From the IMG/VR virus record IMGVR_UViG_3300020202_000108, positions 1-45,516 of that record: DNA of 45,516 nt; one strand, written 5' to 3'. Position 1 is the first letter of the stretch; every line of letters begins with the position of its first letter. Under the pieces are notes generated by a model, which was given only the letters and a program-made list of their open reading frames with translations, was not told the DNA's origin and ran no database searches. Below are positions 4,131-45,516 of the stretch, in pieces. Made by a program: the position numbers and the translations under genes. Source of the DNA: a virus.

Positions 4131-4159
4131 CATTCTACGAACGTTCGTAGATTTTGCAA
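4131..4159 (-). promoter_or_regulatory. Leftward promoter of the cro-like gene
   Basis: Read on the - strand: -35 TTGCAA at 4159-4154, a 16-base spacer, then -10 TAGAAT at 4137-4132. Seven bases later comes ATG 4124. The spacer is filled by the operator palindrome, so repressor bound there would block RNA polymerase. Inferred from consensus, not tested. Confidence 0.65.
4134..4151. promoter_or_regulatory. Operator O1, perfect 18-bp palindrome
   Basis: TCTACGAACGTTCGTAGA is a perfect inverted repeat between the divergent cro-like and repressor genes. Two near-copies occur at 5223-5240 and 5253-5270, and I saw no other copy in the window. Its position inside the cro promoter spacer and recurrence at the right promoter mark it as the repressor/Cro binding site. 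Confidence 0.85.
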
Positions 4160-4215: not shown

Positions 4216-4737
4216 ATGGGCTCGGAAGTGTCACAGCGACGGAAAGCCGCCTTCATCGACTGGATGGAGGCGAACGATCTGAATGTGAACCGGGTCGCCA
4301 AAGCTACCGGCATTTCGGTCAACACTCTCTACAGCTACGTCAACGGTCCGACGCAGTTCCTGACCGTCGACAAAGAAGCGAAAATCGCCCGCACGTACGA
4401 TCTGCCCGTTGAGGCGATCTTTGGGCCGGTCGAGATTACGCCGGACATCGAACCCAACTTCGTGCAGGCGTGGAGGGAGCATTATCACCTCACGCGTAAA
4501 GAGCTGGCGAAGCGGATTGGGTCGACCGAGGAGAACATTCGTCTCCTCGAAGAGGGGCAAAGTACTTTCTCTGCTAAGTGGCAGCGCCGGATCGCGGACG
4601 CGCTCAAGGTGGGGGCCGGCTACCTGCATCACCACCCCGACACGCTTACGAAAGACGTTCTCACCCTGATCGGCATTCCTGAAGAGCGCCAGGAGTTGGC
4701 CAGCCAGGTGATGGAAACGTTTCGGGTGGCGGGCTAA
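4216..4737 (+). CDS. Tandem-HTH phage repressor (immunity repressor)
   Basis: A 173-aa protein with two DNA-binding domains. Residues 8-70 resemble the N-domain of S24-type repressors (FIDWMEANDLNVNRVAKATG, then ISVNTLYSYVNG); residues 78-135 are a Cro/CI-type HTH (HLTRKELAKRIGSTEENIRL). There is no S24/LexA-type peptidase domain or Ala-Gly cleavage site, so self-cleavage in the SOS response is not expected. Start ATG 4216 has AGAGG only one base before it; GTG 4228 is an alternative. It diverges from the cro-like gene across O1 and likely represses both that promoter and the right promoter through the three operators. Confidence 0.8.
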   Translation: MGSEVSQRRKAAFIDWMEANDLNVNRVAKATGISVNTLYSYVNGPTQFLTVDKEAKIARTYDLPVEAIFGPVEITPDIEPNFVQAWREHYHLTRKELAKRIGSTEENIRLLEEGQSTFSAKWQRRIADALKVGAGYLHHHPDTLTKDVLTLIGIPEERQELASQVMETFRVAG

Positions 4738-5141: not shown

Positions 5142-5222
5142 CCTTCAGCCATATTCGGTACGCCTGCGGCCGGCTTAGCTGACGCCCAAGGCCGCCTGGG
5201 CACGTCACTACCACGCATATTT

Positions 5223-5240
5223 TCTACGATAGTTCGTAGA
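5223..5240. promoter_or_regulatory. Operator O2
   Basis: TCTACGATAGTTCGTAGA matches O1 at 16 of 18 positions. It lies upstream of the predicted -35 of the right promoter. Its start is exactly 30 bp from the start of O3, close to three helical turns, so dimers on O2 and O3 could contact each other. Confidence 0.8.
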
Positions 5241-5246
5241 TTTCTG

Positions 5247-5274
5247 TTGTGATCTACGAAGGTTCGTATATGCT
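5247..5274 (+). promoter_or_regulatory. Right promoter (start of the 5.3-19.2 kb operon)
   Basis: TTGTGA at 5247-5252, a 16-base spacer, then TATGCT at 5269-5274. As at the cro promoter, the operator (O3) fills the -35/-10 spacer. The first gene starts 39 bp downstream with a strong GGAGG. Predicted from consensus and from the parallel geometry of the two promoters. Confidence 0.6.
5253..5270. promoter_or_regulatory. Operator O3
   Basis: TCTACGAAGGTTCGTATA is a third copy of the operator, with an intact left half-site and a slightly degenerate right one. It lies within the spacer of the right promoter, so occupancy would directly exclude RNA polymerase. Confidence 0.8.
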
Positions 5275-12489: not shown

Positions 12490-12741
12490 ATGTCGGACCG
12501 CAAGGAAACGATGACGCTCAACCTGTCGCCCGTCGAGATGCGGGCGGTAGAGGGAATGGCGGCCGACGCCGAGCTTTCGAAAACGGCTCTCATTCGTCAG
12601 GCCCTACGCGTCTACCAGCTCGTCACCAGCCGGATCAAAGCAGGCGAGACCCTGACGTTCAGTGGCGACAAGGAACGCGTCGCCCTGTTCGTCGGTCCCG
12701 GCTTCAACGCCCTCCAACCCCCTTCAGGAAAGGCCGGCTAG
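12490..12741 (+). CDS. Ribbon-helix-helix (CopG-like) DNA-binding protein, 83 aa
   Basis: MTLNLSPVEMRAVEGMAADA followed by ELSKTALIRQALRVYQLV is a typical beta-strand plus two-helix RHH domain; the C-terminus is a short beta-rich tail. It likely binds DNA as a dimer and may regulate within the right operon. It is directly followed by a zinc-ribbon gene with no gap. Confidence 0.75.
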   Translation: MSDRKETMTLNLSPVEMRAVEGMAADAELSKTALIRQALRVYQLVTSRIKAGETLTFSGDKERVALFVGPGFNALQPPSGKAG

Positions 12742-21681: not shown

Positions 21682-21879
21682 GTGGAAAAGATCATCTACG
21701 CTCCGAACTGGCGCCCCATAGACGCGGCCGACTTCGGCCTTGATGAGACTGCGCCCGTCACTCTCGATCCGTCTGACGTCCTACCTCCCGTACAAGGTGA
21801 TCGTGCCGGCATCGAAGGCGGCGCCGGACTCCCAACTGAAGCGGACGGCGTCGATGCTCCCGCTCGCGGCCCAGGCTAG
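21682..21879 (+). CDS. Possible small + strand protein, 65 aa
   Basis: GTG 21682 begins MEKIIYAPNWRPIDAADFGL and DETAPVTLDPSDVLPPVQGD, which reads like real protein for the first 35 residues, a stretch not covered by any - strand gene. The rest is antisense to the 3' end of the tail fibre gene and is low complexity. The ribosome binding site is weak. Confidence 0.3.
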   Translation: MEKIIYAPNWRPIDAADFGLDETAPVTLDPSDVLPPVQGDRAGIEGGAGLPTEADGVDAPARGPG

Positions 21880-23421
21880 AACCGCCGTCGCCGCCGAAGT
21901 GGCGCCGCCCAGGAACCTTGTCGAGGTCCATGAAGTGCTCAGCCCTGACGTCATCAGGCCCGCGTTGAACAGGTAGCCAGGAACCAGTATGGCGCCGCCC
22001 ACTGTTTCGGACGGTCCCGCTCCTCCAGAGATCGAGACTGCGGTCGAGTAGTTGGTCCCGTTATTATTGGATACGGCGGCTTGGACCGCTTCGGCGCCCG
22101 CGGTGTTTGAGCTGACGCCCTCGAACACGAACAGCAGGTCCGAATAGCTCTGCGAGATCGACGTGAACGATATCGTGGTCCCGCTCGTGGTGGCTTTCGT
22201 GTCGAGTTGCGTCCACGTCTGCGAGGGGATCGCTTGAAAGGTCGGATCGCCGGAGCCGTTGGACGTGAGGACATGGCCCTTAGTCCCAACCGCAGTCACC
22301 TGAACGGCGCCCGTACCGTTGCCGATCAGAACGCCGCCATCGGTGAAAGTGGAGACGCCAGTTCCCCCGTCCGCCACGGCCAAGTCGGTTATGCCGGTGA
22401 TTGAGCCTCCGGTGATCGCCACGGCGTTGGCGTTCTGCGTCGCCATGGTGCCGAGCTTGCCGCCGGACTCGATGGTCGCCGGACTGTCGTCGGACCAAAC
22501 CGCAACGGTTCCAACGGTGATGATGCCGGAGGAGCTGACGTCCCCCGTACCCGGATTACCCCTGGGGATGGTGAAGTCGAAGACAGCCGCCGAGGAGGTG
22601 CCGACGTTCTTCACCTCCGCATTCGAGCCCGGAGCGCCCGTGGTGGTGTTCCCCACCGTGACGGTAGCCGCGCTGCCGTCCTTGCCATCCGAGCCTGCCG
22701 CGCCCTGTGGCCCCGCCGCAGCGAACGTGAGCGAGACGTTGGTTGCGTCAGCAGGGCGTGTAGTCCCGCTCTTCCACGTCACCGGGACCTTGCGGTAGCC
22801 CGTGCCGTCAATGACCGCCCCAGAGACATAGCCGACGAGGAACGCCGCCGAATCCACCAGGCTGCGGACGATGACCGTGCCGCGGTTGCTGCCCGAGTTG
22901 GCGTCGTCGAAGCTGTCCAGGAAGGTGGTCGCCGACACCCCGTTCAGGTCGGTGTTGTCGATGTAAAGGAAGGTGACGCTGCCGACCGTGGCGTTGTTGA
23001 ACCGGAGCTTCCCGGCCCCTGGATCGCTGTCCGTCGTGGTCGTGCTGAACTCGTAGAGGACCGTTCCGGCATAGCCCGCAACAAGCCCCTCAATGGCCTC
23101 AAGCGCGTCCTCAGTTTGGTCGAGGATCGCAGCATCGGCGGCGAGCGAGGCGGTGACGTTATCCAGGGTAAGGGTCTGGCCGTCGGCGGTGGACCAATTG
23201 ACCGTGTAAGCTTCGGCGGTGTCGGCCCAGATGGCGACGAAGGCCCCGGCGTCATTTGAGACAACCGGAAAGGAGAGCGGGACCGTCAGCGCCGAGTTGG
23301 CGTAAACGGTCTTCGGCGTCGTCGTCTCGTTGTCGTAGAAGCGCAGCTCAGCGATGACCGCGCCGCCGTTACGGCTACGGCTCGGCTGAGCGCCGGGAAA
23401 GATCATCAAGCCTGCAGCCAT
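21781..23421 (-). CDS. Tail fibre / receptor-binding protein with collagen-like segment
   Basis: A 546-aa beta-rich protein. The N-terminus (FPGAQPSRSRNGGAVIAELR) resembles virion-attachment domains; residues 235-255 contain Gly-X-Y triplets (AGPQGAAGSDGKDGSAATV), a collagen-like trimer element. Repetitive VADGGTGVSTFTDGGVLIGN and TKGHVLTSNGSGDPTFQAIP are typical of fibre shafts; the C-terminal 140 residues look like a receptor-binding head. It is transcribed from its own late promoter (23479-23506). As the last structural gene before lysis, it likely sets host range. Confidence 0.8.
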   Translation of the reverse strand: MAAGLMIFPGAQPSRSRNGGAVIAELRFYDNETTTPKTVYANSALTVPLSFPVVSNDAGAFVAIWADTAEAYTVNWSTADGQTLTLDNVTASLAADAAILDQTEDALEAIEGLVAGYAGTVLYEFSTTTTDSDPGAGKLRFNNATVGSVTFLYIDNTDLNGVSATTFLDSFDDANSGSNRGTVIVRSLVDSAAFLVGYVSGAVIDGTGYRKVPVTWKSGTTRPADATNVSLTFAAAGPQGAAGSDGKDGSAATVTVGNTTTGAPGSNAEVKNVGTSSAAVFDFTIPRGNPGTGDVSSSGIITVGTVAVWSDDSPATIESGGKLGTMATQNANAVAITGGSITGITDLAVADGGTGVSTFTDGGVLIGNGTGAVQVTAVGTKGHVLTSNGSGDPTFQAIPSQTWTQLDTKATTSGTTISFTSISQSYSDLLFVFEGVSSNTAGAEAVQAAVSNNNGTNYSTAVSISGGAGPSETVGGAILVPGYLFNAGLMTSGLSTSWTSTRFLGGATSAATAVLAWAASGSIDAVRFSWESGAAFDAGTITLYGR

Positions 23422-23446
23422 GGCGCGCCCGGCGGGAAGGTCGTTC

Positions 23447-23472
23447 GGGCGCTTTCCGCACCGGGGGCTCTA
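23447..23472 (-). repeat. 26-bp late-promoter downstream element, copy 2
   Basis: Identical over 26 bp to 28448-28473. On the - strand it begins TAGAGCCCCC and ends AAAGCGCCC, with GGTGC-GGAAA-GCGCC able to form a hairpin in the 5' leader. It starts six bases after the -10 of the tail-fibre promoter. Confidence 0.85.
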
Positions 23473-23478
23473 TCTCGA

Positions 23479-23506
23479 ATAGTACCCTATCGGCAGGGTG
23501 GCTCAA
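23479..23506 (-). promoter_or_regulatory. Late promoter for the tail fibre gene
   Basis: On the - strand TTGAGC (23506-23501), 16-base spacer, TACTAT (23484-23479), then the shared 26-bp element. The same layout and spacing occurs upstream of the ejection-protein gene at 28479-28506, which makes chance unlikely. Confidence 0.7.
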
Positions 23507-23525
23507 GACGTGCTAGGCTGTGGAA

Positions 23526-23798
23526 ATGAGATCCATTCCGGTTCTCCCGCTCGCCATGGTCGGCGCGGTTCTAACCGCGATGTTCGGCCAATACTTCTAC
23601 GCCCTCATGGCGATGTGGGTTGTGGTTGGCCTTGTAGCGCATTTTGCCGACGCTCGGATGAAGGAAGCCGAACGCCTAATTGCTCTGCTGCCTGCCGATA
23701 AAGCGGAGCAAGCGCCGGATCGCGCGCCGCCAAGGCCGCGAGCTTCGAAAGCGCCTCCCGCTTCTGCCCTGGAGTCGAGGCCCGATAGATTACATTGA
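23526..23798 (+). CDS. Small + strand membrane protein inside the late region, 90 aa
   Basis: ATG 23526 begins MRSIPVLPLAMVGAVLTAMF, followed by GQYFYALMAMWVVVGLVAHF, two membrane segments, and an amphipathic helix; after residue 60 it is Pro/Ala-rich. The 3' 194 bp are antisense to the end of the 656-aa ejection protein, while the 5' part lies in a gap. It is divergent from the tail fibre and opposite to all late genes. It may be a lysogeny-expressed membrane protein; the function is unknown. Confidence 0.5.
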   Translation: MRSIPVLPLAMVGAVLTAMFGQYFYALMAMWVVVGLVAHFADARMKEAERLIALLPADKAEQAPDRAPPRPRASKAPPASALESRPDRLH

Positions 23799-25575
23799 GG
23801 AGCCGAATGACAGGCCGGCTGTAGACCGCGGATGCAAGCGCGTTGGCTCCTAGTATACCCCCTGCAACTGGCGCGGCGGTAGCGCCCGCCCCGGCGACCC
23901 CTGCGCCCGCAACCCCGCCACCAGCAGCCCCGATCATGCCAAGCCACGACCGTAGCGGCGTGCCGCTGTCGGGCACGGATGAGGGAAGAACACGAGCGGC
24001 AGGGTCGGAAATATCCTGCATCAACGCCTCACCGCGGGCGTAGGCTCTTCCGCTCCCCTTCCGGGCGACCGAGAGGTTGAGCTGCGTCGGGGTAAACAGG
24101 CCGTCGGTCTTGGCGGTCGCGGTGCTTTGCGCCGCACCGTTGATCCGGACCATGTTGGCGAAAGCCTCATTTGCCCTGGCGACTTCTGCAGCAGCTTCGG
24201 GGGCCGCTCGCTCAAGGGTTCGCCGATATGCCTGCTGAACCTGCGTGAGGGCGCGGGCGACAGGGCGCTGCGCGGCGGCCCCGGGCTGTCCGCTGGCCGC
24301 CGCGCGCTCAGCCGAGCGGATGGCCTCGCCCAACTCCTCGTCGATTACCTTCCATTGACGCCCGGAGATTGTTCCCCGGAATTGGCGCGTCACGATATCG
24401 TCTACCACGTCGGAAACTTCCTGCTGGGCCCGCTGAGGAAGCGCGCCCACAATGGCGGCCACGTCGCCGCCGAAGACATTGTCAGGGGCGATGCTCACTG
24501 GATCGAGCGCCCTATTGTACGCTCCGGAAATAGCGTCCTGCGCAGCGGCGATGGCTTCCCGGCCCGTCACCCCCGGCGCGAGCTGTTCGCCTATGGGATC
24601 GAGCGCGCGGTTGACGACCGCCCTGTTGAACGACCTCAGGCTGTCGGTTTGGCGCCCGCGGATCGCATCGCCCACTCCGGGAATGCTGGTGGAAGCATCC
24701 TCTATCCGCTTGCCCATGCCGCCGAGCATCTGGCCTGGCGTAAGATCAACCCCTTCGTCGGACAGAACACGAGCGTCGGTGGGCGCTCGGGCGCGCGCTG
24801 CTGCGGCGCGGTTCCCTAGGGCGTTCGATCCGGCTTGTAGGGCCGATCCCATGCCGAAGGTCACAGCGGTTTCCAGGGCGGCGCCCGGCGCGCGCTCCTT
24901 CAGGGTTCCATCCTGCCGTGCGACGGCGAAGGGTGCATTCGTGGCGGCCACGGTGGCCCCGGCGCGTAGGGGCGTCATCGTCGCCTGAAAACCGCGAGCC
25001 GGCGCGCCTCCAACCGCAATACCACCCAACGTGGCTAGGGCGTTCCCGACGGGATGCTCCTTGGCGTACTCGGATTGACGCTCCCGCTCAAAGTCCCTGG
25101 CCGCCTGGCCAGCCGCCCCCGGCGAGATTTCTACGGGCTTGCCGAGCAGTCGGCGCACGGCGTTTTCCGCGACCTGGGCGCCGTAGGACACCCCCCCGCT
25201 TATATCATCGCGGACACCGAGGTTGCGGCCCAACTGGTCGTTCCACTCGCCCAAGGCGCCCATGACTTTGCCACCGGCGTACTTCGTCTTGGCCTCTTTA
25301 TCGATCTGCGCGCCAAGCTTCTGCCGCTCCCTCGCCTTCGCATAGCCAGGGTCCGTCAGGGACCGCATGTCGGCTATGGTCGGCTTCCGGCCAATTGCCT
25401 TGTCCGCCACTGACCCGCGGAGGTAGTCCACCACTTCGGTTGCGCTATAGCCCGAGCCCCGCGCCTGCTGAATCTTGGGCGCGAGGCCGGCGTCCTTGCT
25501 AAGGAACGCAGCGATCTGGTCATCCGAATAGCCGGAAGCCCTGGCCGTGGCGATCTGGTCGGAGAGGTTCGCCAT
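23605..25575 (-). CDS. Large DNA-ejection (internal virion) protein candidate, 656 aa
   Basis: Third of three consecutive internal-protein-type genes between the stabiliser/needle genes and the fibre, the place of P22 gp16. It is helical and Ala-rich, with ISGGVSYGAQVAENAVRRLL and QGAARD-type segments, and Gly/Ala membrane-active stretches (LGMIGAAGGGVAGAGVAGAG, residues about 568-587) that could insert in a membrane during DNA delivery. The N-terminus has two SGYSDDQIAAFL / GSGYSATEVVDYL repeats. Assignment rests on order and composition, not on a recognised motif. Confidence 0.6.
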   Translation of the reverse strand: MANLSDQIATARASGYSDDQIAAFLSKDAGLAPKIQQARGSGYSATEVVDYLRGSVADKAIGRKPTIADMRSLTDPGYAKARERQKLGAQIDKEAKTKYAGGKVMGALGEWNDQLGRNLGVRDDISGGVSYGAQVAENAVRRLLGKPVEISPGAAGQAARDFERERQSEYAKEHPVGNALATLGGIAVGGAPARGFQATMTPLRAGATVAATNAPFAVARQDGTLKERAPGAALETAVTFGMGSALQAGSNALGNRAAAARARAPTDARVLSDEGVDLTPGQMLGGMGKRIEDASTSIPGVGDAIRGRQTDSLRSFNRAVVNRALDPIGEQLAPGVTGREAIAAAQDAISGAYNRALDPVSIAPDNVFGGDVAAIVGALPQRAQQEVSDVVDDIVTRQFRGTISGRQWKVIDEELGEAIRSAERAAASGQPGAAAQRPVARALTQVQQAYRRTLERAAPEAAAEVARANEAFANMVRINGAAQSTATAKTDGLFTPTQLNLSVARKGSGRAYARGEALMQDISDPAARVLPSSVPDSGTPLRSWLGMIGAAGGGVAGAGVAGAGATAAPVAGGILGANALASAVYSRPVIRLLNVIYRASTPGQKREALSKLAALAARDPALAPLYRQAAEQLGVRLPSSERRQNALQGQPQPTSP

Positions 25576-26847
25576 TTACTTGAAGATCTGATCGAGGGAC
25601 GGGCGCTGCGAGGCGGTGGGGCCCCGAGCGCCGCCCGGCGCCGGTCGCGGCTGGATCACGTCCGCTCCAGGAAGCCCCACCGAGTCCGCATAGCCCTGGT
25701 ACTGCTGGGCAAGCTGATCGTAACGCCCGCGGCGAGCCTGATAGACGTTGGCTGCCCCCTGCGTGAACTCGCCCCTCTGCTTGGGATTGAGCATCTGGCC
25801 GCTCACCGCCTTGTTATAGGCGTTGCGGATGCGGTCAGGAATGCCGGCAGCGTTCTGCGCGTTGGCGAATTCACCTTCACGGACAACGGAGCCGGGGTCG
25901 AGCATCTTCATGTAGCTGAAGATGAGGGATAGATCGTTTGCCGCGCTGGGCTTCGCCTTCGCCAGCGTGGAGATCACGTCGTAGCTCGTCGCCACGTCGT
26001 TGAAGTTCTTCACGTCAGGCTGGCTGTTGAACTCCTTGCGGAGCGCCATGGATTGTTGACGAGCCTGCTGCGGAGTCATGCCGCCGTCGGCGCCTTGGCG
26101 AGCCTCGGCCGCGCGCGCGATCTGCACCCGCTGACCCTCAAGCCCGACCCGCTGGCGCTCCAAGCCGACGCGCTGGCCTTCCAGCCCGAGGCGCTGATCG
26201 TCTCGCTTGTTGTCCGCCTCCGTGTCGGTCCTGCGCAGTTCGAAGTCGCGCTCCTTCTCCTCGCGCTCAGCCTTGAACGTCCGATCCTTGTTGGCCTGGT
26301 CGATCAACTTGTCCATGTCCTGCGCAGAAAAGATCTGCTCATCAATGGCGGCGTCAGAGGGCTCCATGATGAGGCGCCCAACGTCCTCCCTTGGCATACC
26401 AAGCCCGATCAAGGATGGAGCGAGCCGCTGAAGTTCCGCGCCGCGCTCCTGAAGGGGCATGGTCCGCAAGCGGAAGAAGGTTTTCCCAATAGCCTCTGTC
26501 TTCTCCTTAGCAGCGGCCCGATCCGCCTCCCCCATCGCCATGACGGCTGTAATAATCTCTTCGTCGCCCGTTTCGCGTGCGGCGTTCATCCGCTTGGCGG
26601 GATCGGCCTCCCTGAACACCGCCCTCTTCTGCTCTGTGAGCTGCCGCGCGGCCTGGTCGTCCCGCAGCTTCATGGCGGTCACGGGATCGTATGGCGCAAG
26701 AGCATTGATGCCGCCTTCGTGGTCGCCGCTGGCGTACATGGCGAGGGCGTTCGTCACGTCCCGCTCCTTGCGGGCCGCCCTGCCTGTTTCGAAGGCGGCG
26801 AGGACGCTCTGGAACTGAGGGCCCTGGCCGAGAAGGGAGAAGTCCAT
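25576..26847 (-). CDS. DNA-ejection protein candidate with heptad repeats, 423 aa
   Basis: A helical protein with TPR-like N-terminus (DVTNALAMYASGDHEGGINA) and a striking register of GLEGQRVGLERQRVGLEGQR near residues 220-240, an almost perfect 7-residue repeat predicting a rigid coiled coil. The Q/N-rich C-terminus ends PSLDQIFK. It sits between two other ejection candidates, as P22 gp20 does. It abuts the 656-aa gene with no gap and overlaps the upstream 525-aa gene by one base. Confidence 0.6.
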   Translation of the reverse strand: MDFSLLGQGPQFQSVLAAFETGRAARKERDVTNALAMYASGDHEGGINALAPYDPVTAMKLRDDQAARQLTEQKRAVFREADPAKRMNAARETGDEEIITAVMAMGEADRAAAKEKTEAIGKTFFRLRTMPLQERGAELQRLAPSLIGLGMPREDVGRLIMEPSDAAIDEQIFSAQDMDKLIDQANKDRTFKAEREEKERDFELRRTDTEADNKRDDQRLGLEGQRVGLERQRVGLEGQRVQIARAAEARQGADGGMTPQQARQQSMALRKEFNSQPDVKNFNDVATSYDVISTLAKAKPSAANDLSLIFSYMKMLDPGSVVREGEFANAQNAAGIPDRIRNAYNKAVSGQMLNPKQRGEFTQGAANVYQARRGRYDQLAQQYQGYADSVGLPGADVIQPRPAPGGARGPTASQRPSLDQIFK

Positions 26848-28424
26848 CAGTAAGGCGCCCCGTTGTAGGTCAAGGCCGCGGCGTTTGCGCCAGGGGCCCC
26901 GCCGCCCTGGTTCCCATAGTAGTAGGCCAGGGCGTTCGTGGCGTTGCCCAGCGTGTTGTTGAACTGCCCGGCCGCCGCCAGGGCAGAATTGCCCTGCACG
27001 TTGGCGTTCGACAGGAAGGCGTTCGACAAGGCGTTGGCGTTGTTGCCGATGGCGTTGTTGTACTGCCCGACTGCGCCTTGGCCTATCCCGGCGAGGTTCA
27101 GGAGGTTGTTCGTCTGCTGGTCATAGCGGCTCGTGGAATAGTCACGGTCGGAGTTGTAGGTGTTCTGATCCAGGGCCGTGCGGAACTGGTAGGTGGTGTT
27201 CGCCGTGTTGAACGAGTTCAGGGCGTTGTCGGCATTGAAGGCGTTGGAGAACTTCCACTTGTCGGCCAGGGCGTTGTAGCCGAACTGCGCGTTCGCCAGC
27301 TTGGTCGAATTGTAGGCGTCGTCCCGGTTCGCCGTGAAAGCCCGGTCCTGGTTGTACTGGCCTGCCGTGAAGTCGCGCCACTGGCCATAATCCCCCATGG
27401 CGAGATCCTGGCCGTACTTCTGCAGGGCCTTCAAGGCCGCGCCGGATTCCAGCGCCCCCGTGGCCGATGCATTGGCGAGGATGTTGCGGTTGCCCTCGGA
27501 AAGCTGGAACTCGTAGTCGGGGCTTTGCTGATAACTCCCCAGCGACACGTCGAGGGGCGCGACCTGCGTCTCCCGGTACTCCGGAGCTGCGTAGGAGGGA
27601 GCCTCGGTCAGGGTCGGGGCGGCATAGGTGGGCGACGGGCCCGGAAGCGGGCGCTGGCCCGTATAGACCCCATCAGCGTTCATCGCAGCGGGCGGAGGGG
27701 CCAGGGCATAGGCCGACAGGTCACGCGGGCTGCCGGCCTTCTCCGTGTCGGCGTAATGGGCTGCGCCGAAGTCCTGGATGGTCAGGTTCGGGTTGTCGCG
27801 CTGCACCTGCTGCCAATAGGCCAGCACGTCGGGCTGGGAGGTGACGTACTTGGCCCAATCGACACTGTCGCCCTGAGGCCGGGCGGACGCCTGCGGGGAC
27901 GGCGTCCCGCTGCGGGTGAAGGCGGTAAGGTCGCGGGGCGTGCCTTCAGCGGCCTTGGCCTGATCATACCACCACTGACCGAACCGGCCGATGTCGTTGC
28001 CGTGCGCGGCCCGATCCGCTTCCGAGGCGCCTTCCCATGCCGCCAGCAGGGCCGGATCACTACGGACGAAACCGGCCCAATCAACGTCGGGCTGGGCCGG
28101 GGCCGCCGGGGCTCCGGACGATTGGCCTCCCGGCAGGTTCAGGCCGGTGCGGGACGCAAGCTGGGTGAGCGCGGCGTCGCCCACGCCGCGGGCCACAGCG
28201 GTGTTGGACTGCTGAAGATCGAGGGCGCGGTTGTTGACGGCGGCCGTGGCGTCGGTAGCCCGCTGGGAAGCATCGGCCGCCTTGTCAGCCGCCTTTCCGC
28301 CCGCGATGCTGCTGATGATGCCGCTGCCCACTACAGCCGCAGCGATCCAGGGAATAATGCAGCAGATGCCCGAATGGTCTGGCTCGGCGCTGAAAGCCGC
28401 TCGGCTGAAATCTCGGTAGGCCAT
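26847..28424 (-). CDS. DNA-ejection/transfer protein candidate, 525 aa
   Basis: The N-terminus has a hydrophobic glycine-zipper (IIPWIAAAVVGSGIISSIAGG minus its last residue) followed by AADKAADASQRA, a start typical of podoviral transfer proteins. The middle is Pro-rich; the last 200 residues are strongly Asn/Tyr/Gln-rich with FNADNALNSFNTANTTYQFR-like repeats. It is first behind the late promoter at 28479-28506, so the three ejection genes can be expressed together. P22 gp14/gp7-like by position only. Confidence 0.6.
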   Translation of the reverse strand: MAYRDFSRAAFSAEPDHSGICCIIPWIAAAVVGSGIISSIAGGKAADKAADASQRATDATAAVNNRALDLQQSNTAVARGVGDAALTQLASRTGLNLPGGQSSGAPAAPAQPDVDWAGFVRSDPALLAAWEGASEADRAAHGNDIGRFGQWWYDQAKAAEGTPRDLTAFTRSGTPSPQASARPQGDSVDWAKYVTSQPDVLAYWQQVQRDNPNLTIQDFGAAHYADTEKAGSPRDLSAYALAPPPAAMNADGVYTGQRPLPGPSPTYAAPTLTEAPSYAAPEYRETQVAPLDVSLGSYQQSPDYEFQLSEGNRNILANASATGALESGAALKALQKYGQDLAMGDYGQWRDFTAGQYNQDRAFTANRDDAYNSTKLANAQFGYNALADKWKFSNAFNADNALNSFNTANTTYQFRTALDQNTYNSDRDYSTSRYDQQTNNLLNLAGIGQGAVGQYNNAIGNNANALSNAFLSNANVQGNSALAAAGQFNNTLGNATNALAYYYGNQGGGAPGANAAALTYNGAPY

Positions 28425-28447
28425 GAACCCAGGCGCGCTAAGGATCA

Positions 28448-28473
28448 GGGCGCTTTCCGCACCGGGGGCTCTA
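28448..28473 (-). repeat. 26-bp late-promoter downstream element, copy 1
   Basis: Identical to 23447-23472. It lies in the leader of the 525-aa gene, five bases after the -10, and can form the same GGTGC-GGAAA-GCGCC hairpin. Because it is transcribed, it could act as DNA site, RNA stabiliser or antitermination signal. Confidence 0.85.
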
Positions 28474-28478
28474 CAGGG

Positions 28479-28506
28479 ATTGTACCGCCGTCGGAGGCTC
28501 GATCAA
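28479..28506 (-). promoter_or_regulatory. Late promoter for the ejection-protein genes
   Basis: On the - strand TTGATC (28506-28501), 16-base spacer, TACAAT (28484-28479), followed by the shared 26-bp element. It lies directly after the needle candidate gene. Geometry identical to the tail-fibre promoter. Confidence 0.72.
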
Positions 28507-33235: not shown

Positions 33236-33252
33236 GGGACACCGGAAAGGAT

Positions 33253-33278
33253 GGGGGCCGAGCGTGAGCCCAGCCCCC
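33253..33278 (-). terminator. Hairpin after the major coat gene (partial terminator)
   Basis: On the - strand GGGGGCTGGGC (33278-33268) pairs with GCTCGGCCCCC (33263-33253) with G-T pairs and a small loop, followed by ATCCTTTCC. The weak T-tract suggests partial termination or 3' protection, which would raise coat over downstream mRNA. Confidence 0.5.
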
Positions 33279-33292
33279 TAGGCGTGGAGGAC

Positions 33293-35287: not shown

Positions 35288-36057
35288 CAGGCGTTCTCCG
35301 ACCAGTAGGTTTCGGCGTAGTCCTGCTCGGTCAGCAGACCCTTGCGGATGAACGCGCGCGTGGCGGCGTCTCGTGCGGCTTGGGGAATGTCTGACCAGCC
35401 CCGCTTTCGGGGCGCTGAGGAGGCGGTTCTCTGACCGCCCTGGACCGCGGGGGGCTGCCTGCCCTGTCCGTTGGTCCGCTCGCTCGGCGCATCTTCGCCG
35501 AAGTGTTCGGGAAATCTCTTCCGGACTTCCGCCTCAGCAGCCGCCAATTGCTCAGCGGTGCTGCCACCATTCTCAAACACTTCCTGCGCAGCTTCAAGAG
35601 CTACCTGACGAGCTTTTCTGTCGGTCGTCATCCAGGCGTGCTTGCGGCCGAACTCTTCGACGAGCGGGTCGGGCGCCCTGGAGGCTTCCCGAAGGTCCTG
35701 AGCAGCCCGAGCGGCCGCTTCCTCGTCGCCGGACTTGGCTGCCGCGGCGATCCTGGCCTCGGCGTCGGCGATAGCCTCGCGCCGGTTCTTCTCGATGAGC
35801 TGGGCCGCGGCGCGGTTGTTGCGCTCCATGGCCTCGCGCTGGCTTTTCAGCACGGCGGGCGTGGCCTTCAGGAAAGCGCGGGCGTCGCGCCACTTGTCAG
35901 GGTCGCCCTTCCACTTGTCCTTGGGCGTCCAGCCCATTTCCCCGGCGACTTCCTCCAGCATCACATGCGGGTCGGACGCCTCCGCTTCTGGCGTGACGAC
36001 AGGATCGCCGACGTGAAGGGCCACATCCTCGCTGACAGGAACGTCGATATCTGTCAT
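35287..36057 (-). CDS. Scaffolding protein candidate, 256 aa
   Basis: An acidic N-terminus (VPVSEDVALHVGDPVVTPEA), a long Ala/Glu/Arg helical middle (EKNRREAIADAEARIAAAAK, VEEFGRKHAWM) and a short C-terminal helix-turn typical of coat-binding tails (TRAFIRKGLLTEQDYAETYW). Located between the co-chaperonin and coat-side genes, it fits an internal scaffold. No protease motif. ATG 36057 overlaps the previous stop. Confidence 0.7.
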   Translation of the reverse strand: MTDIDVPVSEDVALHVGDPVVTPEAEASDPHVMLEEVAGEMGWTPKDKWKGDPDKWRDARAFLKATPAVLKSQREAMERNNRAAAQLIEKNRREAIADAEARIAAAAKSGDEEAAARAAQDLREASRAPDPLVEEFGRKHAWMTTDRKARQVALEAAQEVFENGGSTAEQLAAAEAEVRKRFPEHFGEDAPSERTNGQGRQPPAVQGGQRTASSAPRKRGWSDIPQAARDAATRAFIRKGLLTEQDYAETYWSENA

Positions 36058-36410
36058 TGCTCGGCTCCCTCGAAGATCGCCATGATGTCGCGGTCCTTGA
36101 TCACCCTGTACTGGCGGCCGTCGGGGCTGGCCTCTTGGGGCACGACCCCCGCGTACTTGGCGAAAAGGACGTGATCGCCCGGCTGCGGCTTGCGCGCGCC
36201 CTCGGGCCACTGGGCATAGTCGAAGGCCAGAGGCGACACGGCCACGAGGAGACCGCGCATCTGCGCCATGGCCTCCTTTTCGCCGACGTTTTCAGGGATG
36301 ATGAGTAGTCCGGAAGGCGACGTGAGCGCCTTCTCCGCGGTCGTGATCACCACGTTGTATTCGGTGGGGCGGAAGCCCGGCTTGCATTCTTCAAGGCTCG
36401 GCAGATTCAT
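36054..36410 (-). CDS. Phage co-chaperonin, GroES-like (Cpn10)
   Basis: A 118-aa protein with Cpn10 organisation: FRPTEYNVVITTAEKALTSP, a mobile-loop-like stretch SPSGLLIIPENVGEKEA, GLLVAVSPLAFDY and QPGDHVLFAKYAG, ending KDRDIMAIFEG. It would cap host GroEL, presumably to fold the coat protein, as T4 gp31 does. It sits between portal and scaffold genes. No matching GroEL is encoded, so it must use the host ring. Confidence 0.8.
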   Translation of the reverse strand: MNLPSLEECKPGFRPTEYNVVITTAEKALTSPSGLLIIPENVGEKEAMAQMRGLLVAVSPLAFDYAQWPEGARKPQPGDHVLFAKYAGVVPQEASPDGRQYRVIKDRDIMAIFEGAEQ

Positions 36411-42020: not shown

Positions 42021-42107
42021 TTAACTCAGCTTGCGAGGATTGACCGGGTTAGAATGACCCTTGGCGCGCCCGGTTGTGAATCCCTCATCCTCGCCGTTGA
42101 TATCCAT
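42021..42107 (-). CDS. Possible 28-aa ORF before terS
   Basis: ATG 42107 (GTG 42110 alternative), after GCAGG, reads MDINGEDEGFTTGRAKGHSN and ends NPRKLS, finishing 14 bp before terS. It fills the only sizeable gap in this area. Too short to be sure. Confidence 0.3.
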   Translation of the reverse strand: MDINGEDEGFTTGRAKGHSNPVNPRKLS

Positions 42108-45162: not shown

Positions 45163-45516
45163 GCGGCCACCGCGCCAACACTGATGGGCTCAATGAGCAC
45201 GAAAACCTTGGGGTCCTTTGTCGGACCAGCGGCCGACCATTCGACAGTGCTTCGCTCGCAGTCCGCGTCGTCGCGGATTACGCCAGCCGCTTGGATGGCG
45301 TCGGATAAGCTCTTGGGCAGGTTCTCTACATCCCTCCGACGCCTGTCTGGGCGCTGGGCGACATACGTAATGTGATATGGCCCCTCGATACGCCGACCGG
45401 CCGCGCTGAGCTTCGCCTCCCACTCGGCAAGCTTGCGCCATGAGCGGTACTTGGCCGAACTAATGCGCCGCCCCTCAGCCACCGTGGTGTTGTGGTTGCT
45501 GGTAGGCGGGTAGCTG
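45159..45516 (-). CDS. rusA: RusA-type Holliday junction resolvase, main part
   Basis: Continuation of the gene starting at 158. In the joined 126-aa protein, Asp70, Glu72, Lys76 and Asp91 fall in RRRRDVENLPKSLSDAIQ and GVIRDD. These match the positions of the E. coli RusA active-site residues, except that Asp72 is conservatively Glu here. RusA is a small dimeric nuclease that resolves four-way junctions, needed for branch-free concatemers before packaging. It follows the ParB-like pair and precedes the replication genes. Confidence 0.9.
   Translation of the reverse strand, partial: SYPPTSNHNTTVAEGRRISSAKYRSWRKLAEWEAKLSAAGRRIEGPYHITYVAQRPDRRRRDVENLPKSLSDAIQAAGVIRDDADCERSTVEWSAAGPTKDPKVFVLIEPISVGAVAA
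45391..45516. repeat. Terminal direct repeat, right copy
   Basis: Identical to 10-135. Because the shared 126 bp lie inside rusA and merging them yields one intact gene, this is most simply the overlap of a circular assembly, not a biological terminal repeat. A circularly permuted, headful-packaged genome would assemble this way. Confidence 0.95.

Follow-up and report, generated by a model that had tools for sequence, protein, structure and literature searches.

A 26-bp repeat at two predicted transcription starts suggests a possible shared leader for the ejection and tail-fiber genes of a temperate podovirus

Inside the structural operon of a viral genome, two sigma-70-type promoter sequences, P1 before a three-gene ejection block and P2 before the tail-fiber gene, are each followed by the same 26-bp element, TAGAGCCCCCGGTGCGGAAAGCGCCC, which is identical at 28448-28473 and 23447-23472 of the - strand. 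The sequence strongly implies the exact repeat, the geometry of the promoters and where both are placed, and the arrangement, which is unusual, looks like a private control tag shared by the two sets of genes. We give an even chance to the explanation that these are two internal promoters providing the ejection and tail-fiber genes with a common 5′ leader that acts at the level of the transcript. Host RNA polymerase would recognize P1 and P2, and the extra messages would start with the same ~25 nt, AGAGCCCCCGGUGCGGAAAGCGCCC, with the start codon reached after 48 nt in the P1 message and 50 nt in the P2 message. The leader would be read by a putative trans factor or would fold onto the bases before the AUG, and the ejection proteins and tail fiber would be tuned together, separately from the head genes. 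Action on the transcript appears most likely, given that what the two sites share extends from the predicted start in the downstream direction only.

The window, by which we mean the whole stretch of DNA analyzed, is a viral record of 45,516 bp with 65% GC. With an exact 126-bp direct end repeat (10-135 = 45391-45516), it is probably a genome that was assembled as a circle and is complete. Judged by its family matches, the genes are those of a temperate podovirus, with features like those of P22: these matches comprise the large terminase, the portal (the longest ORF, 721 aa), a GroES-like protein, the major head protein, the head-closure/stabilization protein Hc3, a DNA-ejection protein, lysozyme, an Sf6-like small terminase and an integrase, together with a Rad52/22 annealase and SSB. 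No T7-type polymerase was recognized in the ORFs that were compared with pfam or phrogs. Prophages of Sphingomonas, Gluconacetobacter, Zavarzinia, Leisingera and Paracoccus are among the relatives found via the capsid protein, so that the host is likely alphaproteobacterial.

Several other features of the genome deserve mention. The GroES-like co-chaperonin gene (36054-36410) adjoins the portal gene, a placement also found in the relatives L004, L005 and L006. A ParB-like protein (phrog_3264, 155-991) and a phrog_5931 protein without assigned function (940-1998) are neighbors on the - strand, and no ParA was found among the ORFs scanned. A palindromic repeat of the TTCTACGAACGTTCGTAGATTT type is present three times (4133-4154, 5222-5243 and 5252-5273), beside a Cro-like ORF, the gene for an HTH repressor and the rightward early genes, and its copies are likely immunity operators. 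Directly downstream of the major capsid gene, the gap at 33236-33292 contains a strong GC-rich stem, GGGGGCTGGGCTCACGCTCGGCCCCC then ATCCTTTCC, that is a possible terminator or processing site.

The features on which the argument depends, in the order in which they would be transcribed, are as follows.

28501-28506, - strand: P1 -35 hexamer TTGATC, by direct reading; first of the window's only two TTGA..TA...T matches
28479-28484, - strand: P1 -10 hexamer TACAAT, 16-bp spacer; 9/12 consensus matches
28448-28473, - strand: 26-bp element, copy 1; exact repeat, far beyond Markov expectation
28425-28472, - strand: predicted 48-nt 5′ leader of the ejection message; weak Shine-Dalgarno sequence; GCGCGCC at 28432-28438
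28449-28463, - strand: putative hairpin GGTGC-GGAAA-GCGCC, copy 1; also an imperfect DNA palindrome
26847-28424, - strand: first ejection-block gene, 525 aa; phrog_598 DNA ejection, 5.6e-21
25576-26847, - strand: second ejection-block gene, 423 aa; phrog_13634 (no assigned function); matched in the relative L033 at the same place in the gene order
23605-25575, - strand: third ejection-block gene, 656 aa; without a family match
23501-23506, - strand: P2 -35 hexamer TTGAGC, by direct reading; the second TTGA..TA...T match in the window
23479-23484, - strand: P2 -10 hexamer TACTAT, 16-bp spacer; below the reach of the stricter consensus scan
23447-23472, - strand: 26-bp element, copy 2; exact repeat
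23422-23471, - strand: predicted 50-nt 5′ leader of the tail-fiber message; weak Shine-Dalgarno sequence; GCGCGCC at 23422-23428
23448-23462, - strand: putative hairpin GGTGC-GGAAA-GCGCC, copy 2; same sequence as copy 1
21781-23421, - strand: tail fiber/spike gene, 546 aa; N-terminal match to the Pan3 tail spike

Direct reading of the - strand confirmed every letter and coordinate that an earlier note on this DNA had given for the two sites. Both copies of the element are intergenic, one ahead of the ejection block and one ahead of the tail-fiber gene. Apart from the 126-bp end repeat, the element is the longest direct repeat of the genome, with a runner-up of 18 bp. As the longest repeats in Markov genomes of orders 1, 3 and 5 (60 genomes per order) were at most 19, 20 and 21 bp, respectively, chance does not explain a repeat of 26 bp. 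The window holds no third or partial copy, the next best match (17/26) being at the level of simulated genomes. The contention that the flanking bases differ holds for the spacer and flanks, which have diverged, but not entirely for the upstream 34 bp, which share 18 identities (p ~0.009), most of them belonging to the hexamers and to GGTAC and CCT. The sequence GCGCGCC is common to the remainders of both leaders (p ~0.03). The shared leader is either under selection or homogenized. Separately, a 12-bp sequence, CCGGGCGCGCCA, occurs on the - strand both in the tail-fiber leader (23421-23432) and in the gap that precedes the gene for the small terminase (42062-42073); in a genome so rich in GC, the match may be due to chance.

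What precedes the two copies is consistent with promoters. At P1 the order is TTGATC-16-TACAAT-CCCTG-element (28506 to 28448), with 5 bp between the -10 hexamer and the element, and at P2 it is TTGAGC-16-TACTAT-TCGAGA-element (23506 to 23447), with 6 bp. The -35 and -10 hexamers match the consensus at 4/6 and 5/6 positions in P1 and at 4/6 and 4/6 in P2. By sequence, both sites have the hexamers, the 15–18 bp spacing and the purine start 6–9 nt downstream that are typical of sigma-70, with predicted starts at A28472 (7 nt past the P1 -10) and A23471 (8 nt past the P2 -10). Because a general consensus scan of the region is close to the shuffle level (2 sites found, 1.6 expected), the hexamers alone prove nothing. 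However, when both strands of the window were searched, the pattern TTGA-N2-N15..18-TA-N3-T had exactly two matches, and these were P1 and P2; ~3.4 matches would be expected anywhere, and the probability that both repeats would have one immediately upstream by chance is ~3e-8. P1 and P2 are therefore very likely a real promoter pair, as far as sequence can indicate, and the earlier proposal of twin promoters with a shared transcribed element is well supported by the repeat and the hexamer geometry. Since the predicted starts A28472 and A23471 fall at the beginning of the repeat, the conserved part would be the initial transcribed sequence. The 1-bp shift of the element relative to the -10 is absorbed by the choice of start site, and the lengths of the two leaders agree within 2 nt. 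A sigma-54 reading of GG-N10-GC in the element was set aside as a poor match by eye.

That these promoters are "late" would follow from the genes that they precede and from nothing else. The ejection block was named correctly, as its first gene matches the phrog_598 family, annotated as DNA ejection. The third gene of the block matches a Sphingomonas prophage (L136), downstream of that prophage's own ejection homolog. The tail-fiber assignment is borne out by the N-terminal match, which covers the Pan3 tail spike from its residue 1 onward; the protein also matches the HTVC010P tail fiber. The element itself does not behave as coding sequence: relative to the AUG, the two copies are in different frames (48 versus 50 nt), and a mini-ORF, GTG CGG AAA GCG CCC TGA, is closed by the stop in copy 1 only.

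If the promoters are used and the element acts as RNA, as we infer, how might the leader work? The weakest step of the explanation is leader folding. The hairpin that had been proposed for the 5′ end of the message can form, but in isolation (-8.3 kcal/mol; z -1.1) it is no better than shuffles, 28 of 200 of which are equally stable, and it is outcompeted within the complete 48- and 50-nt leaders, where its local probability is essentially zero. As the isolated hairpin would leave nine 5′ bases unpaired, it would be a weak design for the RNA-stability tag that was also suggested. In the full leaders (z -1.66 and -1.74), the 5′ half of the element is instead predicted to pair with unique bases directly before the AUG (p 0.05 and 0.037 for the duplexes, relative to random genome segments). 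These pairings differ between the two leaders, giving two different long-range structures, and the folds shift and lose significance once coding sequence is included. Shine-Dalgarno pairing at the two start codons, at -2.0 and -2.5 kcal/mol, is among the weakest of ~60 genes, most of which have values of ~-4 to -11 kcal/mol. The weak Shine-Dalgarno sequences and the predicted pairing of the element with the bases before the AUG point to leader-level control. The fuller proposal, that the element is a phage-private 25-nt RNA tag through which a putative factor or pre-AUG folding co-regulates the ejection proteins and tail fiber separately from the head genes, is unlikely on present evidence. 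Among the P22-like phages that have been described, none is known to us to use a shared leader of this kind.

A second explanation, possible though we doubt it, is that the element is a DNA operator. A protein-binding site at +1 to +26, with half-sites GGTGC/GCGCC 10 bp apart, could allow a phage or host repressor to stop transcription at initiation or elongation, so that both promoters would stay silent while the phage is a prophage. A temperate phage with an integrase and an HTH repressor needs plain sigma-70 promoters to be silenced, the 15-bp core is an imperfect palindrome with half-sites spaced by one turn, and the genome encodes candidate binding proteins, namely a ribbon-helix-helix candidate (12490-12741) and the ParB-like protein (155-991). 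A further candidate DNA-binding protein is encoded at 4216-4737. However, the pattern GGYGC-N5-GCRCC is found only twice elsewhere, which is near chance, and the repressor-type repeats of this phage (TTCTACGAACGTTCGTAGATTT) are unrelated in sequence to the element. We prefer a transcript role because the conservation is asymmetric: a dimer operator would center on its core, whereas the conserved block is lopsided about the palindrome, extending 10 nt on the 5′ side and only 1 nt on the 3′ side.

Could the element instead be a remnant of recombination? A piece containing promoter and leader may have been copied when the ejection module was inserted, with the Rad52-type annealase either keeping the copies identical or using them for module exchange. 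We regard this as improbable. The repeats bracket precisely the three-gene block, the phage carries both the Rad52/22 annealase and SSB, and ejection modules vary greatly among relatives. Moreover, in relatives with a recognizable ejection homolog the gene usually abuts the preceding gene, leaving no room for a promoter, which indicates that the gap, promoter and element were derived in this lineage. Nonetheless, crossover between direct repeats would cost the phage genes that are expected to be essential, the GC content of the block is unremarkable, and a recent copy should share spacer and flanks, yet these have diverged while the hexamers and the 26 bp stayed the same.

Returning to the shared leader, the feature looks lineage-specific in the sequences searched. 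The search of related phages set out in advance in the earlier note failed to bear out conservation, as no copy was present in any relative searched. The element was absent, with up to 3 mismatches allowed, from 25 relative records, and in 113 fetched relative loci nothing rose above the level of shuffled controls. Among 108 loci obtained via the major capsid protein and 31 further stretches, none contained a repeat comparable to the 26-bp one before the ejection and tail genes. A 23-mer of the element had no match in IMG/VR and none in GTDB contigs, nor did loop-free and promoter-plus-5′-half patterns match in IMG/VR. In 385 genomes of the class to which the Sphingomonas genome belongs, 4 matches were found with ≤3 mismatches, compared with 3 for the reversed control, and the contexts of those 4 contained nothing resembling the promoter-plus-leader arrangement. 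BLAST against phages and plasmids returned only matches with E 0.3 or worse, and Rfam gave no match to the element at the gathering threshold and chance-level matches only below it. As the ejection proteins are so strongly diverged between relatives, absence of the element from them is weak evidence against function.

Comparison with known systems also bears on function. Phage T7 has class III promoters before gene 13 and before gene 17, which encodes the tail fiber. T7 is the closest functional parallel of the systems compared, since near-identical short sequences precede an internal-virion/ejection gene and the tail-fiber gene and give those genes transcription of their own. However, the T7 sites are promoters of the phage's own RNA polymerase, and most of their length is upstream of the start, whereas the element described here lies downstream of host-type hexamers. 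Cluster K mycobacteriophages contain the conserved SAS, a 13-bp sequence (GGGATAGGAGCCC-type) without known function that is present in 11–19 copies at the translation initiation sites of non-structural genes, with the ESAS adding imperfect inverted repeats (PMC3203893). Like SAS and ESAS, the element is a short, well-conserved repeat before a subset of the genes of one phage genome, but it is 26 bp long, differs in sequence and has two copies, 23 and 25 nt from the AUG. It also precedes structural genes, is tied to a predicted transcription start and occurs in one genome only.

Two further comparisons concern the earlier suggestion that the element is an antitermination site, which we consider very improbable. 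A hairpin with a 5-bp stem and a purine-rich pentaloop, like lambda boxB or HK022 put, would modify polymerase soon after initiation; the geometry is indeed boxB-like (15 nt, GNRNA-type loop), and the hairpin would lie, as putL does, at the head of the transcript (PMC9378689). The put sites are ~70 nt with two stem-loops, act on early transcription and occur in similar but not identical copies (PMC9378689). As at putL and putR, two copies of a transcribed cis-element lie near two promoters of a temperate phage, but the element has only 26 nt, at most one weak local hairpin that folds at the chance level, and no Rfam match. By reading, no boxA-like CGCTCTTA precedes the hairpin, and the element lacks a -10-like pause sequence. 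Terminator-like sites are no more common than in shuffles, and thus there is little visible to antiterminate. The RfaH ops sequence, a 12-mer (GGCGGTAGCGTG), is likewise a short transcribed element of operon leaders (PMC5995543), and the G-rich, pause-like words of our element recall it, but the best ungapped match is 6/12 and the local score (p 0.30) is at the chance level. PF02357, representing NusG/RfaH paralogs, had no match in the window, a search confined to the genome of the phage, and no antiterminator-like family appeared among the ORFs scanned. The element belongs to none of the families compared (T7, SAS/ESAS, put, ops). As for the suggestion that it is the site of an unrecognized activator, such proteins typically bind upstream of the -35, and there the two sites have nothing in common.

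If P1 and P2 are used, a temperate podovirus would split its structural operon and dose its injection proteins and tail fiber through one shared leader. Late transcription of alphaproteobacterial phages has been little studied. Genes that are not adjacent would be co-regulated through a compact and testable cis-element, which might also lead to an unrecognized late regulator in these phages. For a feature with two copies in a single genome, the weight of these considerations is modest.

Finally, we note some observations from the relatives. One relative encodes a NusG-family protein (G010 contig, 1230-1535; the record of L028), and L004 has a gene ahead of its terminase genes that is annotated as RfaH-like and is not matched by PF02357. 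In Gluconacetobacter prophages and related IMG/VR records (L047, L051, L091-L094, L097 and L103), a terminator-like sequence, AAAAGTCTTTTTGCTTCTTTTTCTTCAGAAAAAGAAGA, is repeated along with neighboring repeats, with two copies 2–3 kb apart upstream of the capsid gene.
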